64,000 nucleotides of DNA from Capsaspora owczarzaki ATCC 30864 (Eukaryota; Opisthokonta; Filasterea): positions 845,587-909,586 of the forward strand of contig NW_011887297.1 of assembly GCF_000151315.2 (NCBI RefSeq), read 5' to 3'. The notes beneath the pieces were generated by a model. The model was not told where the DNA came from. It did not search any database and saw only the letters and a program-made list of their open reading frames with translations. Of this stretch, positions 648-9,744 are shown piece by piece (the stretch's first letter is position 1; each line of letters starts with the position of its first letter). The translations under genes were made by a program, and so were the position numbers.

Positions 648-3600
648 TTACTCGAGCCCAAACTGGGACGTTAACAAGGCAGTTGACGTGGCGTGTGCAA
701 GCTCATCTCGCAGGGTCTGATCGTGCTCCGCACCGTCCAGCAGTGCGGGCGTGGGCTGTGCGATCGAGCTGCCGTCGGACTGGGTTACAGCAAGCGTTGG
801 TGCAGTCTTCAGGGGCGACGTCAAGAAGGGCATGGTTGTGCGCAATGCGGTCGGCGACGAAGGCAGCGGTGGCGATGTTGCGCCAGCGATGGACGTGGTG
901 AAGCTGGCTCGCTCTGGCGAGCTAGTGACAGTTGCTGCAGTGGCCGCTGCCGCTGCCGTTGTTGTCGCTGTTGTTTCTTGCTCCAGAATGGCGGCATTGT
1001 GTTGAAACTGCTGTTGCTGCGAGTTGAGCATTTCTTGTTCCTCCTCGTGCAGTCGTTGTGTGCGTAGACGTTCTTGCGCCTCGATTTCGGCACGAGCCTT
1101 CCGCCGAATGTAATCGGCACGGTTTCGCTCGAGATCGTTGACTTCGTTCTTGACCATTGTCAGGTGGTGCTGCCGGCGCTGGGCAATCTTTGACTTTGGG
1201 AATGGATTCAAATCGGGGAAGCTCGCCTACTCGAAAAAGAAGCCAAAGAACAACGCAGTGAGAAAACCTCCAGTCTGTCAAAATGCAATCGAAAAAGTGC
1301 CCGCGCACAGACACACACGCTCACCTTCCAAAGCACATCCGGGTCAAAGGACTTTGTTGAAAGATTCTTCAGATAGTTAAAGATGGCCAGCGAGTCGTCC
1401 ATTGCAAGCAAGGTCTTTTCGTTCACGCGCAGCAATCCCAGCGCATATCGGAAGAGGACCTTGTTGCCTTCCAGGAAGAATGTGTCCCACACACGGAAGA
1501 GAACCTGCAATTAGGGATCAGAGGGGAAAAAAAAAGACAAGACACAAGTTAGGAACACACAAACGCAATCCCCGATTCCAACCGACCCACACATTCTTTG
1601 GCCTCCCTTCAATCTCACCTCAGGGGACAGTGCATCCACGAAAAGCGTCAAGAACCAGTTGAAAGTAATCATGGTCAGATCAATCTTGAGCTTGTCGAGA
1701 TGGGCAAAGAGACGCGGACACTTCTCCTGCAGCAAATCACGCAAGACACGCTGGTCGGCTTGGCTGGCAATCAGCGAGGCATTGTAGTAGTCCGGCGGCA
1801 TGACATGCTCAATCAGCGCGACAAGGCCCCAGAAAGAGTCCTCCTCGTTGAGATGGAGCAAGAGGATGGCGGCAATCAGGTTCATGCCCTGGCAGTAACC
1901 GACTTGCGGGTTGTGCCAGCTGTAGGCGACTAGCACACGACGCAGGTTTGCAATACCTGGCGCTGTGGGCGTCGAGTAATTGACATTGAGCGGCAGCGTT
2001 CGGAGCAGATCGAGCTCGATCTGCTGGGTCGCTCGCGATTGTTTGCGCACATTGCTTTCGAGCAGCTTGAAGTAGTGCCCAGCACCCATCATGCGGCGGT
2101 CGTCGCCGGTGAGCCGTTCAATGCACTCGAGCCAGATCTCTGTCCGGAACTCCTCCGGAATGCCGCTCCGCACGAGGGATTTTAACTCTTTCGCGTTGGG
2201 ATCGATCGGCTTGCCAGAATGTGTCTGCATGTAGCGGTTCCAGCGCTGCAAGCGAGTCTCCTGCAGGCTTTCGCTTTGAGTAGCGACTTGCTTCTTGCTG
2301 TGCTTGATCAGCGAGCCGAGCGCATCCGAGCTCGAGGGCTCCAAGAAGCCGTACTGATCGTACTGGCCGAGCGAGTCGAGCGCAGCATCGTTGGGCGCGT
2401 CACTCGGCTCGGCAAACGCAGGCAGGGTTGGATCGAGGTCAGCGATGCCTCCACCACCTTCACTACCCAGTCCAGAGCTGGCCGTTCCCGCTTGCGAGGC
2501 CGGAAGGCGCTGGAGAAGAGCATAGTAGGACGATCGAGCGCGCGAGAGGTCGCCCTCCAACTGGGCAATCTTCTTTTGCTGGCGAGCGATAGTGCGGTCG
2601 TTGTCGGTGCGGAACTGGATGACAGCGTTGTTTTCAGAGGTGAGAAACGAGTTGCGCTCGGCCAAGGCAGTGTTCTCCTCGCGGAGTTTCCTGATCTCGG
2701 CTTGCGCCGTCTGGAATTGGTGTCGATCAATTGTTTTATCGCTGAGCGAGACAATTTCACGATCGCGCTCAACGAGCGTATCCGAAATGGCCAGCAGCTG
2801 CTCTTCAAGTGCGGCGATGCGCGCCCGCGCAGCATCTGCCTCGGCACGAGCCGTGTCACGCTCGTTGCTCATTTCGTGAATGTTGCTCTCGAGTTCCATC
2901 ACCCGTCGATCGCGCACAACAAGCAGCTCCTCCTTTTCTTTGTCTGACGCGCAGCGGTCGAGGGCCGCGCGCGACTGTCGCTCAGCATCCAACTCTTTGA
3001 TGCTCTGGTAAAGCGACTGCAGAACCTCCTCGCGAACCGAAATGTCCTTCTCTGCTTGCGCCAGCTCGTCGCGCAAGCTTTCGATGGTTGCGCTGTCCGT
3101 CGATTTGCCGAGCTTGATGCTAAAGCCAAACCGTTGGAAGGGCTTGGAGTCGGTGGTGTCGCTGGCCTTGCGCTGTGCCGACCCCGGGGTAGCCGGATGG
3201 GACACATTGCCGGGAGAGCTGGATGCAGAGCCAACGCCAGAGCCAGAGCCAGAGCCAGCGCCAGAGCCAAAGCCAGAGCCAGAGCCAGTCGCCGAACCAG
3301 AGCCACCCAGCGCAGTCTTCAACTTGAGGGAAGAAAACCATCGGTTTGACGACGAGGTTGAGGCCGTACTGACAGACGGTGGAGCGCTGGGTGCTGGCTC
3401 CAACGCTACCGGAGCCGCCGTGCTTGTGGCATCCGCGCCACTACCAGGTGCTGACGGTGTGGGCTGGGCGGTGGTGACTTGCGGTGGTGCCTCGGTACTA
3501 CTGCTGGCACTAGAGCCGGTCTCGGCTGCTGCCGCGATGCTATTTTCCAAATACACGGCATACGGAAGAGGCCTCGGGGGTGGTCCACGACGCTCAGATG

Positions 3601-5016
3601 CAGGCGAACCGGATGGAGAGACCGTACCAAGGCTCGGCCTTGCGGGCGGCGCAGTTGTAGCGGTCGAGGGAGGCAAAGCTGTGCCGCTGGGCGCGAGTGC
3701 GGGCTCGGGTGAGACAGCCGCCTGCGTGGGAGCCAGAGACGCAGCTGCACTCACGGGCGCGGGAGGAGTGGTTGCGGTTGTGTTTGTATTTGACTGGATG
3801 CGCGCTTGATAGCGCTGTCGCTCCTCCTGCAGCGATCCCAACCAACCCAGCATTGTTTCCTTGTCTCGCGCAGCAAGAATATATCGGCGGGCTTCCGTGC
3901 TGCGTGACACGACAAGACCGTTAGCAAATACGAACATGCCTATTCCACGCAATCAAGGAGCAAAGACCGCGTCTCTTACTTGATGGAAAAGTGACCAGAG
4001 TCGCTGTGCTTGTTGGCATCGTTGTCAATGGTGAATGTGGCGTTGGAAATGTCAATCGTTCTGTTTGCAGGAGAAGAGAAACAACAAACCACGTTAGGCA
4101 CGACCACTAGCTATCATCATCATCACCACCACCACCACCACCACCCAACGGATTCACTTACCCAAGAGGATAGACATCCTTGGGGCTCTCGTAGTAATGC
4201 AGCTGGCAGCTGAATGGTTGAAACACCATCCATCGCGTCTTCCACGTTTTCACCAAGCCCTTTGCGCCAAGCTTGTTCAGCCAGCCATGGATGGATGGGT
4301 GCTCGGACGAGCTTCCACTTGCGAGCGCGGGTTGGGCTGCGAGTGGCGGCGGCGACAACGGAGGCGATGTAGGCTCGAGTGTTTGTGTCGAGATTGGCAT
4401 TGCGACCATTCCCGCCACCGCGCTCATCATGGCAGCCGACATGTCGAGCGTCGGCTCCTCCAGCGACGCCGAGCGACTGCTGGATGACAGTGCAGCACTC
4501 GGCACGGCCGACGGTGGTCCCGCAGCAGCGCCTTGTCCGTCTTGCTGTCGATACCCAATGCGCGACTGTGTGTTTCAAAGAGGAGGGAAGAGATGATCAG
4601 TCGGCCGATACACCACGACACTCGGATACGAAAGAATCCGAAATCATGAGAGTGAATACATTGCAGGTTGAGCGTGTGTGAGTTGAGAGAAGCAGGGAGG
4701 AAGGGGGGGAAGTCATCGCAGCAGTCACAAGCGTCAAGCGTCTCAATCACGGGTCAAAACCAAAGGAAGGGGGAATCCTCAAAGTCATCAAAACAGCGGA
4801 GACCACGACGACGATCCACTCTTAACAACAAGCCAAACGAGTGGCAGGAGCGAGAAGCAAGGAAGGATGCGGGGAAAGTGGGGGAAGTGAGGATTCAGAA
4901 ACCTGTGCGGTGGCAAGGGACAAGTGCTCGTCAACGGCAGTGTCGACGCCAGTCACGCCAGCCAGCGGCGACGATGCGCTCGGACCGGCTGCTTGCAACC
5001 CAGTCTGCTTCAGCAT
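648..5016 (-). CDS. TBC1D2/Armus-like Rab GTPase-activating protein (PH + coiled coil + TBC)
   Basis: Exons (minus): 5016-4903, 4565-4162, 4060-3980, 3899-1619, 1504-1325, 1226-648; all phases agree and give 1212 residues. Role (family knowledge): GAP that switches off endosomal Rabs such as Rab7. Domains seen: a PH domain (about residues 110-235) split over three exons, starting at GWLNKLGAKGLVKTWKTRW and ending at ETMLGWLGSLQ; a long Ser/Ala/Pro/Gly-rich linker; coiled coil (about 470-680); TBC domain (about 770-1000). Both catalytic fingers are present: IELDLLR (IxxDxxR) and GYCQGMN (YxQ). The C-terminal ASFPDLNPFP segment matches the conserved ASFNDLNPFP of TBC1D2. Exon 4 carries a run of GSGSGAG-type repeats. 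The start at 5016 is the least certain part; a further upstream exon cannot be excluded. Confidence 0.88.
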
Positions 5017-5366: not shown

Positions 5367-6560
5367 TTACTTGCGAGCAACCTTGGCCTTGCTGCGAGTG
5401 ACACGAGGGCTAATCTTGGGCGAGGCAGCAGCCTTGATGGCGGGGCTGGCAACCTTGGGCGCAGGAGCCGCATCCGAATCAGCGCGCGCTCGCTTAGGGC
5501 TGTGAGCAGGAGCAGCAGCAGCAGCAGGCAAGGCACGCGGCTGGACAGGCTCGGGTTGGCTGGCGTCCACACCGTCATCATCATCATCATCAGCGTCCGC
5601 TTGGGCGTGACTTCGCTTCAGACCCTTCATCTTGCGCGTCTGCAACTCGGCAAGGTCGGGCTGTGCAATGTGGACACGGCCGAGCTTGTTGCCAAGCGAA
5701 TCGTATTCGATATTCTTGACCTTGGTTGGCTTAAGCTGCTTGGGCACACGCAGAGCGTCTCGTCGCAGGTCGTCCGAGGCGAGTTGGGTGCGGCGAATCT
5801 CGAGGGTCATCGAGGGGCCAATCTCCTCGAGCTCGACGCGTGGTAGCCGGGTGCCGCTCTTCTTGAGGACAATGCGGTGGTGGTTGAGCAGAATGCTCTT
5901 GTCGCTCAGCGCAACAAAGGTGATGACGTGGTCGAGGCCTGCGAGGGCAATCTTGTCGACCACGGGGCCGCGGAAAAAGTCTGCCAGCAGGTTCTTGACG
6001 TGCTTGAGCTCGGGGAGCTGCTCAAACCCGTCGCCGGCAAAGAACAGGCACGGCTTGGAGCCCTGCACGCTCTTTTCATTCTTAAAATCGCTCAGCGACT
6101 TGAAGTCCTGCACACCAAACTCGATCATGTCAAGCAATTGGTGGTCAAAGGTACGCCCGAGAATCAAGTTGTGCGGGCGCTTCTTGGAGTGGTTGCCAAA
6201 GGCAAACAGCGACGCGTCGTACTTTTTCGAGAACGACTCGACAAACGTCGCATCCTCGAACGGGTGAATTGGGTTTTTACGACGCAGGTTGATTGTGTGT
6301 GGCTTGCGGAGCAGGCTAAACTCGCGCAGGCAGTTTGTGATGACTTCGGACGTGTTGCCGCCACGAACAAACAGCGACGACTTTGGGTTTTCCTCAATCT
6401 TTGGCGCGCGGTCTTCCAGGATGCGCTTTCCACGGCGGGTCTTGGCCTTGCGGACACCCGAAGATCCAGACGCAAACGCAGCGGCGGGATCGCGCGGCAT
6501 TGCGTTGCGCTTCTGCCGGTGGTTGGTCTTGGACTTTGGGATGAGGCCTGAGCGCGCCAT
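5367..6560 (-). CDS. RPF2: Ribosome biogenesis factor RPF2 (Brix domain)
   Basis: Single exon, 397 residues, ATG at 6560. Role (family knowledge): with RRS1 it brings the 5S RNP into the pre-60S subunit in the nucleolus. Seen: a basic N-terminus, then the Brix core from about residue 45, including APKIEENPKSSLFVRGGNTS, LRRKNPIHPFED, NLILGRTFDHQLLDMIEFGV and FFRGPVVDKIALAGLDHVI, all typical of RPF2. After residue 310 there is an Asp-rich run and an Ala/Pro/Lys tail of about 80 residues that family members vary in. It is one of the few intronless genes here. Divergent with the RPEL gene across 578 bp. Confidence 0.95.
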   Translation of the reverse strand: MARSGLIPKSKTNHRQKRNAMPRDPAAAFASGSSGVRKAKTRRGKRILEDRAPKIEENPKSSLFVRGGNTSEVITNCLREFSLLRKPHTINLRRKNPIHPFEDATFVESFSKKYDASLFAFGNHSKKRPHNLILGRTFDHQLLDMIEFGVQDFKSLSDFKNEKSVQGSKPCLFFAGDGFEQLPELKHVKNLLADFFRGPVVDKIALAGLDHVITFVALSDKSILLNHHRIVLKKSGTRLPRVELEEIGPSMTLEIRRTQLASDDLRRDALRVPKQLKPTKVKNIEYDSLGNKLGRVHIAQPDLAELQTRKMKGLKRSHAQADADDDDDDGVDASQPEPVQPRALPAAAAAPAHSPKRARADSDAAPAPKVASPAIKAAASPKISPRVTRSKAKVARK

Positions 6561-7138: not shown

Positions 7139-9744
7139 ATGTCGGCTGCCGTCGCCCTTTCCGTCCATTCCAGTGAGTGAAGTAGAAAAAAAAAACGGTT
7201 CGGGGTTGTGAAAATGAAAAACTGGCACTTTTCCAATCGGCAAATTGGTGCAAAAGCAGCTGTTCGTCGCGCCGTCGCCGTCGTTCACCACACCATTGCG
7301 TGTTGCTACCGAGTCAATGCAGTCGTTGGCAAGCGAGTGAGCAGAGGGGGGAAGCGGAAGCACGCGAGATGACTCCGAAAGATGCGAAAAAACCTGCCGC
7401 ATTTGGCAGCTCCCATTGAAATTCGCGCTCTCCCTCTCTGCCCCTCGGACTCTCGCCAGCAGCCTGCCAGTGCGCTGCTGCAACCATTCGACATGCAACT
7501 GGACTGGCTTTGCTACGCACTCGGCGCTCGGCGGCAGACTCGCGATCGTGCGCTCGTGGTCCGATTGGAAACATTTCATGCTTCTCAATTTCCAAATTCT
7601 GACAAAATTTGCTGTTTTTGCTGCTTTTTTTTTTTTTATTGAATTTGAGCATTTGAGCCTTTTTTTTTTCTCCTTTGCTAATCCCGTCCTTTATCAATAC
7701 ATGGGTGTGTAGACGAAGCTGAGCATGCTGATGCGGCCATCAAGCTGCAAAACCGCCTGTCGCAGCGCATGGAACCGAGCGAGCTGCTCGATCGCAACAT
7801 TCTGAAAAGTACGCTCGTTTTGATTTCTGTTGTTTCGCACTCTCCGACTTGTTACTGACCCCCACTCCCCAATGTGCCCCTCTTTGTATTTACTTTCTCG
7901 TCTTGTTTGACTGTGTTCTTTAAACTGTTTACTTGGCTCGTGTGCCTTTTGCGGATGTGCGTTGGTCTTGGCGTTGTTTCTTGTTTCATTGCTTCTGTTT
8001 ACCTTCTTCCTTGCTTCTTCTTCTTCTTTTTCTTCTTCCTTGGTTTCTTTTTTTTCTGAAACAACCAATCCGATAAAAAAAACAACCTTGCCAACTGATT
8101 GCTGGCAGGCCTCGAAACGGCGCCTGCCATTCAGGCTGCGCAGACAGAGCTGGAGCGCGAACGACTCCGACAGACGCTCGATTCCAAGCTGGCCGCGCGT
8201 CCCGAACCGCTGGAAGCCGCCTCCCTCATCAACTCGACCGAGGATGCCGCCGATTTGCACTGTAAGTCTGAGTTGGAGGGGATCTCTGGGAAAATTGTGG
8301 TCAAGGGATTGTCTTGGTTCGAATGCGCACTTTTGTTCTTCGCACTTTTTTCGCTTTTGATGATGACGCTTGTTGTTTCTATTCGGCTTCGTCGCCCCTC
8401 TGTCGCCCCCTCCTCTGGTGCGGTTCGAGTGCTTTGCGTTGCTCATTTTCCTATGCGGGGAAGCGACGTAGGAATGGGGTCGAAAATATCAAAGAAGGAA
8501 GAGAAGAAGAAAGACACGTCCAAAAACCCCTTTGTGAAACATTTTCATCATGCGTCATATCGGCCTTTTCGTTTTTAAAGGGCCTATTTTGGCATCATGG
8601 GACATGCAGTCGTTGTTTTTTTGGTTGACAAAAAATCTCAATCGTCGGAATCGATTGTCTTACCGAAAACCTTTGTTCTGATTCTACCTACACACAAAAC
8701 ACCACAATGCCGCACATTGCAGCTCGCGACGCCACCATGGCCTCTACTGGCATCACCCTCGACCAGAAGCTGGCCAGCAGGCCCGACAAGGAGACCCTGG
8801 TCGAGCGCAACATTCTCAAGGACTCGCACTTGGCTCCTGCCCTCCAAGCCGCCGAGGAGGAACTCAAGAAGCAGCGCATGGAAGACAAGCTCAACCACAT
8901 GATTGAGCACCGTCCTCCCGTCCACGACCTGGTCGAGCACAACATCATCAAGGGTATGTATTTTATGTGGTACTTTTGGGGGTGGTGGCACACGCGACGT
9001 GGCACTCCTGCACGAGAGGATTGGCCTGCGTTGATGTTTTCGAACACAATCCGATTTCGAATATTTTATTTTGATGACGGCGTTGTTCTTTTGGGATTCC
9101 GTTCTTGCCAAGCGCTTTCTTGTGCCAGCTGCAGAAATGAGTGCGTAGTGTTCATGGTGACGTACCCGTCACTGGAGGGAGCGCGGGGAGGTGGTTGGAT
9201 GGATGTTGTAGTTGCTCTTTTGGGAGCAAGCTCATTTTGAACAAAACCAAAACCCCGACAAGATCGATTTTTTTTTTCGCTTCCTCCCCGACCTTTGTGA
9301 TCAATTTTTTACTCAAATTCCGATGCCGATCGATGTGCTGTGTTTACTCACTTGTCGAGCGTTTTTCAATTGCCTGTTTGCGCAGATGGAGGACTCGCCC
9401 CAGCTCTTCAGCATGCCCATGACGACCTGAAGAAGCACATGCTCGAGGACAAGCTCAACCACAAGCTTGAAAATCGCCCCGAAGTCAGCGATCTTGTTCA
9501 GCAGCACATCATGCACGGTAAGCCAGACACTTGCGTGGCGTTTGGAATGGTTTACAGTTTGTTCTCGTACCTCACCTATGTGTCTCGCTGCATTCTTGTT
9601 CACGCACAACTAGACCGCAGCGTTGCGCCATCACTCCAGTCGACTCAAGACTCGCTGAAGAAGGCCATCATTGAAGACAAGCTCACCGAAAAGCTGGAGC
9701 ACCGCCCGACTCAGGCAGAGCTCAAGAAGAAGCACGTCCTCTGA
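7139..9744 (+). CDS. RPEL-repeat protein, six tandem actin-binding-type repeats
   Basis: Exons: 7139-7172, 7713-7808, 8109-8261, 8723-8953, 9386-9517, 9614-9744; every intron is phase 1; 258 residues. Role (family knowledge): RPEL motifs bind monomeric actin in MRTF and Phactr proteins. Seen: motif arginines at residues 30, 74, 114, 158, 202 and 246, so spacing is 44, 40, 44, 44, 44. Motifs: SQRMEPSELLDRNIL, AARPEPLEAASLIN, ASRPDKETLVERNIL, EHRPPVHDLVEHNII, ENRPEVSDLVQQHIM, EHRPTQAELKKKHVL. The third is closest to consensus; the first has Met for Pro and the second has lost the EL..NIL part. Linkers repeat the pattern APALQ...LKK...EDKL. No SAP, coiled coil, PP1-binding or DNA-binding domain follows, so this is an RPEL-only protein, unlike animal MRTF or Phactr. 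The 34-nt first exon is supported by an ATG, a GTGAGT donor and the correct phase. Confidence 0.9.
7173..7712 (+). other. Long first intron of RPEL gene
   Basis: 540 bp, GTGAGT...TAG. It contains T-rich runs (7626-7639, 7660-7671). No RNA gene or alternative coding exon is apparent. Introns 3 (8262-8722) and 4 (8954-9385) of the same gene are also over 400 bp and look non-coding. Confidence 0.6.

Follow-up and report, generated by a model that had tools for sequence, protein, structure and literature searches.

The RPEL-array gene

The window, the whole 64,000-nucleotide stretch of DNA analysed here, carries at 7139-9744 (+) a gene whose six exons and five GT-AG introns join in frame:

5367..6560, - strand: neighbouring gene, Brix-domain protein
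7139..7172, + strand: exon 1, 34 nt; codons 1-11, from the start codon on, and one further base; in-frame ATG, donor GTGAGT
7713..7808, + strand: exon 2, 96 nt; RPEL 1 (Arg30), 21.6 bits alone against a cut-off of 23
8109..8261, + strand: exon 3, 153 nt; spacer 1 (MRTF type), then RPEL 2 (Arg74), which is degenerate and alone has no Pfam match
8723..8953, + strand: exon 4, 231 nt; RPEL 3 (Arg114), spacer and RPEL 4 (Arg158), 40.3 and 24.6 bits; helical model
9386..9517, + strand: exon 5, 132 nt (44 codons, phase 1-1); spacer and RPEL 5 (Arg202), 37.6 bits
9614..9744, + strand: exon 6, 131 nt; spacer, RPEL 6 (Arg246) and stop, 31.3 bits
10128..13469, - strand: neighbouring gene, SLC12-type transporter

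Spliced in silico, the exons give 777 nt including the stop and a protein of 258 residues with motif arginines at 30, 74, 114, 158, 202 and 246, just as an earlier sequence-only reading of this DNA had it. Exon 1 is the least certain exon, placed solely by splice signals and phase. Cysteine, tryptophan, phenylalanine and tyrosine are all missing from the 258 residues, in keeping with an extended, helical peptide that forms no core by itself. The genes on both sides are unrelated, lie on the opposite strand and have no evident link to actin.

The 44-residue period of the protein is far above chance. At a lag of 44, 70 of 214 residues are identical, whereas 10,000 shuffled versions averaged 16.3 and never exceeded 34. 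The distances between motif arginines are 44, 40, 44, 44 and 44, so the constant period first described stands for four of the five spacings and breaks down between repeats 2 and 3 (R2 and R3). The full motif [LI]-x3-[LI]-x2-R[PM]-x4-L-x4-[IV][LIM] occurs five times in the 258 residues and at least once in 1 of 10,000 shuffles, a control that is favourable because the pattern was written after the repeats had been seen. Pfam RPEL (PF02755) matches the whole protein with E = 3.1e-31 and 106.6 bits, in five stretches (maximum E 10), as against the one or two motifs at which the proposal of an RPEL array was to be given up.

Scored singly, four of the six repeats (R3-R6) pass the curated RPEL cut-off, R1 falls just short of it and R2 finds no match. 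Only the first half of the motif survives in R2, with L at -7 and -3 and with R, P and E; in the second half, the L, I and L of the motif at +6, +11 and +12 are replaced by A, N and S. The array is fairly described as five credible RPELs plus a single degenerate copy, and the claim of six repeats holds in that reduced form. A six-frame search of the genome with PF02755 at E <= 0.001 recovered three of the six (R3, R5 and R6). In every repeat the residues at Arg-7 and Arg-3 are L and L or I. Four spacers share a signature of invariant A, P and Q and two invariant leucines; the R2-R3 linker, at 40 residues, is without it.

The RPEL-only architecture proposed for this protein is borne out, as no other family passed its cut-off in the Pfam scan of the 258 residues. 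DUF5921, SHS2_Rpb7-N and DHNA are also listed at E <= 10, each below its own cut-off. A SAP domain, present in one paralog (see below), is absent from the families matched at that threshold. The C-terminal PP1-binding region of the Phactr type is missing too: the protein stops at R6, and in a comparison with the Phactr1 chain 4B1Z the RPEL part alone matches.

Other RPEL genes in the genome

PF02755 finds at least nine matches in four genes of the 27.46 Mb genome (29 contigs), and the idea of a lone RPEL gene was rejected. One paralog, C17 (L010:2647-4710, - strand), is a 687-residue open frame with a SAP domain and three RPELs by alignment to MRTF-A. At E <= 0.1 Pfam recognises two of its RPELs, and its match to MRTF-A has E = 9.8e-24; by these marks it is clearly an MRTF. 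A basic stretch is also visible by eye in this protein. A second, C11 (L009, - strand; offsets 2798-4153 of the reverse complement), has four RPEL stretches and a tail that matches the Phactr tail chain 6ZEE (E = 3.9e-19), and is recognisable as Phactr-like. The third, C9 (L011:2843-4575 and beyond), carries two RPELs at MRTF spacing on a longer protein with CxxC stretches; the 385 residues scanned gave no further Pfam family at E <= 0.1.

The SRF partner of MRTF is a protein of the MADS-box class, and the genome has two MADS-box loci. It also has two Runt loci and six T-box matches, which fall at four loci by our own grouping. Such Runt, T-box and MADS-box gene sets occur in unicellular holozoans, and the earlier suggestion that the host may be a unicellular relative of animals agrees with them. 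The Runt and T-box genes fit Capsaspora owczarzaki. Against that species, an RHD (NF-kB) search of the genome gave no match, but the search, which reads exon by exon, was likewise silent in the control genomes, so that this result shows no absence.

Intron positions and the age of the repeats

All five introns of the array gene are in phase 1. Introns 2, 4 and 5 split the codon at Arg+14 and intron 3 the one at Arg+21; intron 1 precedes the first repeat, and repeats 3 and 4 share an uninterrupted exon. The Arg+14 phase-1 position recurs in two of the three other RPEL genes, namely C9 (two introns) and C11 (one intron, GC-AG by our own gene model). In the C17 MRTF the RPELs all lie in one open frame. 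A 132-nt exon of 44 codons, phase 1-1, is found as exon 5 of the array gene and once each in C11 and C9, and exons 2-5 of the array gene are each symmetric (phase 1-1). Part of the array therefore follows an exon module that could be duplicated or skipped without loss of frame. Three of the four RPEL genes pair the 44-residue module with a 132-nt symmetric exon, which suggests a route by which arrays of this kind expand.

Did the array arise by recent tandem duplication? This was rejected, since third codon positions are 30-45% identical in all 15 repeat pairs; the duplications are old. For the intact repeats (R1 and R3-R6; 10 pairs), identity is 55-86% at second codon positions, with 86% between repeats 4 and 5, and 32-45% at third positions. 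This contrast suggests that selection on the protein maintains the intact repeats.

Relation to MRTF and Phactr

The closest known system is MRTF-A (MAL, MKL1; 2YJE, 2YJF, 3TPM and 3TPQ), which shares the 44-residue period, the spacer and the motif. In a phmmer search of PDB sequences, residues 154-258 (repeats 4-6, 105 residues) align without gaps to the MRTF-A RPEL domain, with E = 6.4e-13 for 2YJF and 4.9e-12 for 3TPQ, and the MRTF-A RPELs are spaced 44 + 44, like those of the window array. When 42-residue stretches are compared without gaps, which penalises Phactr modules of other spacing, the window modules reach a best shuffle z of 9.1 with the genome's own MRTF, 8.1 with MRTF-A, 8.8 with the C9 module and 6.0 with the Phactr-like gene; for R2 and R3 these scores differ little. 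MRTF-type spacers at 44 residues, the mark of an MRTF array, are found in the four spacings other than R2-R3. Judged by these alignments, the constant spacer is an MRTF-type spacer. A spacer unique to the window protein was rejected, because the phmmer alignment and the module comparison place the same spacer in MRTF-A.

MRTF-A differs in having three RPELs and further domains, whereas the window protein has five credible RPELs, one degenerate RPEL and no other family over its cut-off. Phactr1 and Phactr3 (scapinin; 4B1Z and 6ZEE) also carry an RPEL array, but the window protein matches Phactr1 more weakly (4B1Z, E = 0.0019) and is without the Phactr tail. The genome's own Phactr-like gene is likewise unlike the window array, with spacings of 47, 38 and 52. 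Phactrs bind G-actin via multiple RPELs, and their C-terminal PP1-binding region overlaps the RPEL domain (PMC7599070).

The other RPEL genes in the genome, the MRTF-like modules and the common intron position make paralogous expansion the likelier origin of the gene. The proposal that it was ancestral or independently built is not supported in the form in which it was made, given at least three more RPEL genes, the MRTF-like modules and an Arg+14 intron common to two of them.

Structure prediction agrees with the sequence matches to RPEL proteins and adds little weight to them. AlphaFold2 models exon 4 (RPEL 3, spacer and RPEL 4; 76 residues) with a mean pLDDT of 74.1 and a pTM of 0.34, from an alignment of four sequences that are all pieces of the window. 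The predicted helices span 12-17, 22-34, 38-61 and 66-71, with the spacer helix continuing into the first helix of the next repeat. Foldseek against the PDB (E <= 10) returned six matches, all from entries of RPEL proteins with actin: MRTF-A, MAL, Phactr1 twice and ArhGAP12 twice. None of the six reaches E 0.001; the best has E = 0.077, probability 0.80, TM-score 0.39 and rmsd 7.9, and the last four have a probability of 0.15 or less.

Proposed function and alternatives

What might an RPEL array without an output domain do? We favour, at a probability of about 0.65, a multivalent, effector-less G-actin binder built of MRTF-type modules (spacer plus RPEL) that would sequester or buffer monomers. 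Multivalent binding of G-actin had already been proposed and is probable from the modules. Each intact RPEL (R1 and R3-R6) would be expected to dock its helices on a single actin monomer. Three RPELs and two spacers make up the five sites of the pentameric complex of MRTF-A; by analogy, the MRTF-type spacers R3-R4, R4-R5 and R5-R6 (and R1-R2) may contact actin and carry further monomers. The predicted load is about five actins, rising to roughly eight or nine at saturation, as against five G-actins with the MAL RPEL domain in the title of 3TPQ, the largest RPEL complex among the Foldseek matches.

Work on MRTF-A and the Phactrs bears on this prediction. MRTF-A forms tri- and pentameric actin complexes, and its spacer 1 itself takes part in actin binding (PMC4963197), which makes the rigid rod with a row of actins, as first pictured for the window protein, too simple. 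The same source reports that the LL74/78AA mutation in MRTF-A RPEL1 abolishes its actin binding. Counting back from S98 in the aligned letters places L74 and L78 at Arg-7 and Arg-3, and the leucine pair kept in all six repeats therefore counts in favour of actin binding by the window protein. The number of motifs need not match the number of actins, since a partial scapinin RPEL construct (350-422) gave a fitted stoichiometry of 1.21 (PMC2626280). The degenerate R2 and the short R2-R3 linker without the signature suggest that the array may act as R1 plus its spacer and a separate R3-R6 block.

Having no effector domain, the protein would most likely sequester or buffer G-actin, and MRTF and Phactr of the same cell would then have to compete with it for monomers. 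The fuller version, in which the array takes up to eight or nine G-actins and, as a monomer buffer, sets the thresholds at which MRTF and Phactr are activated, is speculative and rather improbable. A related account makes the protein a signalling competitor, a short RPEL-only relative of MRTF that takes up the G-actin by which MRTF and Phactr are otherwise kept inactive, and does so to set their thresholds, not for bulk sequestration. The SAP-domain MRTF, the Phactr-like gene and the two MADS-box loci would supply the setting for it, and the window modules score nearer to MRTF than to Phactr modules in the ungapped comparison; however, abundance and affinity alone separate this account from sequestering or buffering, and we consider it unlikely, though a real contender.

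Could the gene model be wrong, or might a larger RPEL protein be decaying, with this gene as its remnant? The degenerate R2 and the very short first exon would fit such a history, but the five phase-1 GT-AG introns with open exons, the codon-position contrast among the intact repeats, the lack of any other family over its Pfam cut-off and the unrelated neighbours on the other strand make it very improbable. Tandem WH2 proteins, which are actin nucleators or filament organisers, offer a model for a last alternative. A tandem series of monomer-binding motifs at regular spacing might likewise line up actins as a seed, but this is scarcely credible given that the scapinin RPEL domain inhibits actin polymerisation in vitro, the MAL RPEL domain is cited as doing the same, and these domains are reported to bind monomers, not filaments (PMC2626280).

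Sequestration or buffering by a protein of this kind would have precedents. Thymosin-beta and actobindin-like sequesterers are small effector-less binders of actin monomers, some of them tandem; their motif is different, and no homology to the window protein is claimed. Short RPEL-only proteins whose spacer is similar occur in many fungi; they are shorter than the window protein and have fewer repeats. A gene named as an 'rpel repeat protein' is reported in the fungus Moniliophthora roreri (PMC3948071). RPEL proteins and MRTF spacers are already known, and effector-less RPEL proteins in themselves are probably not new. In the literature searched, which left most subscription journals outside and took in long listings in part, we found no paper on a longer effector-less RPEL array, none joining RPEL with Capsaspora and none joining 'RPEL repeat' with Aspergillus. 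A single-protein query with exon 4, which reaches close relatives only, confirmed none of 45 pattern-matching stretches in viral contigs and none of 176 in genome contigs.

Implications

If exons 2, 3, 4 or 5 were skipped, the frame would be kept (phase 1-1), and the number of actin sites could be tuned in this way. The other RPEL genes carry implications of their own. If the host is a unicellular holozoan, the presence there of an MRTF-SRF pair is relevant to how animal contractility genes arose, and with the Phactr-like C11 gene in a unicellular host, actin-controlled PP1 may predate animals.

If the prediction of actin binding by the window protein is right, its host, probably a unicellular relative of animals, has MRTF and Phactr sensors together with a longer RPEL array that lacks an output. 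This would provide a one-cell system for the study of how monomeric actin is split between sensors and buffers, and would let one ask whether the RPEL system began as monomer buffering.
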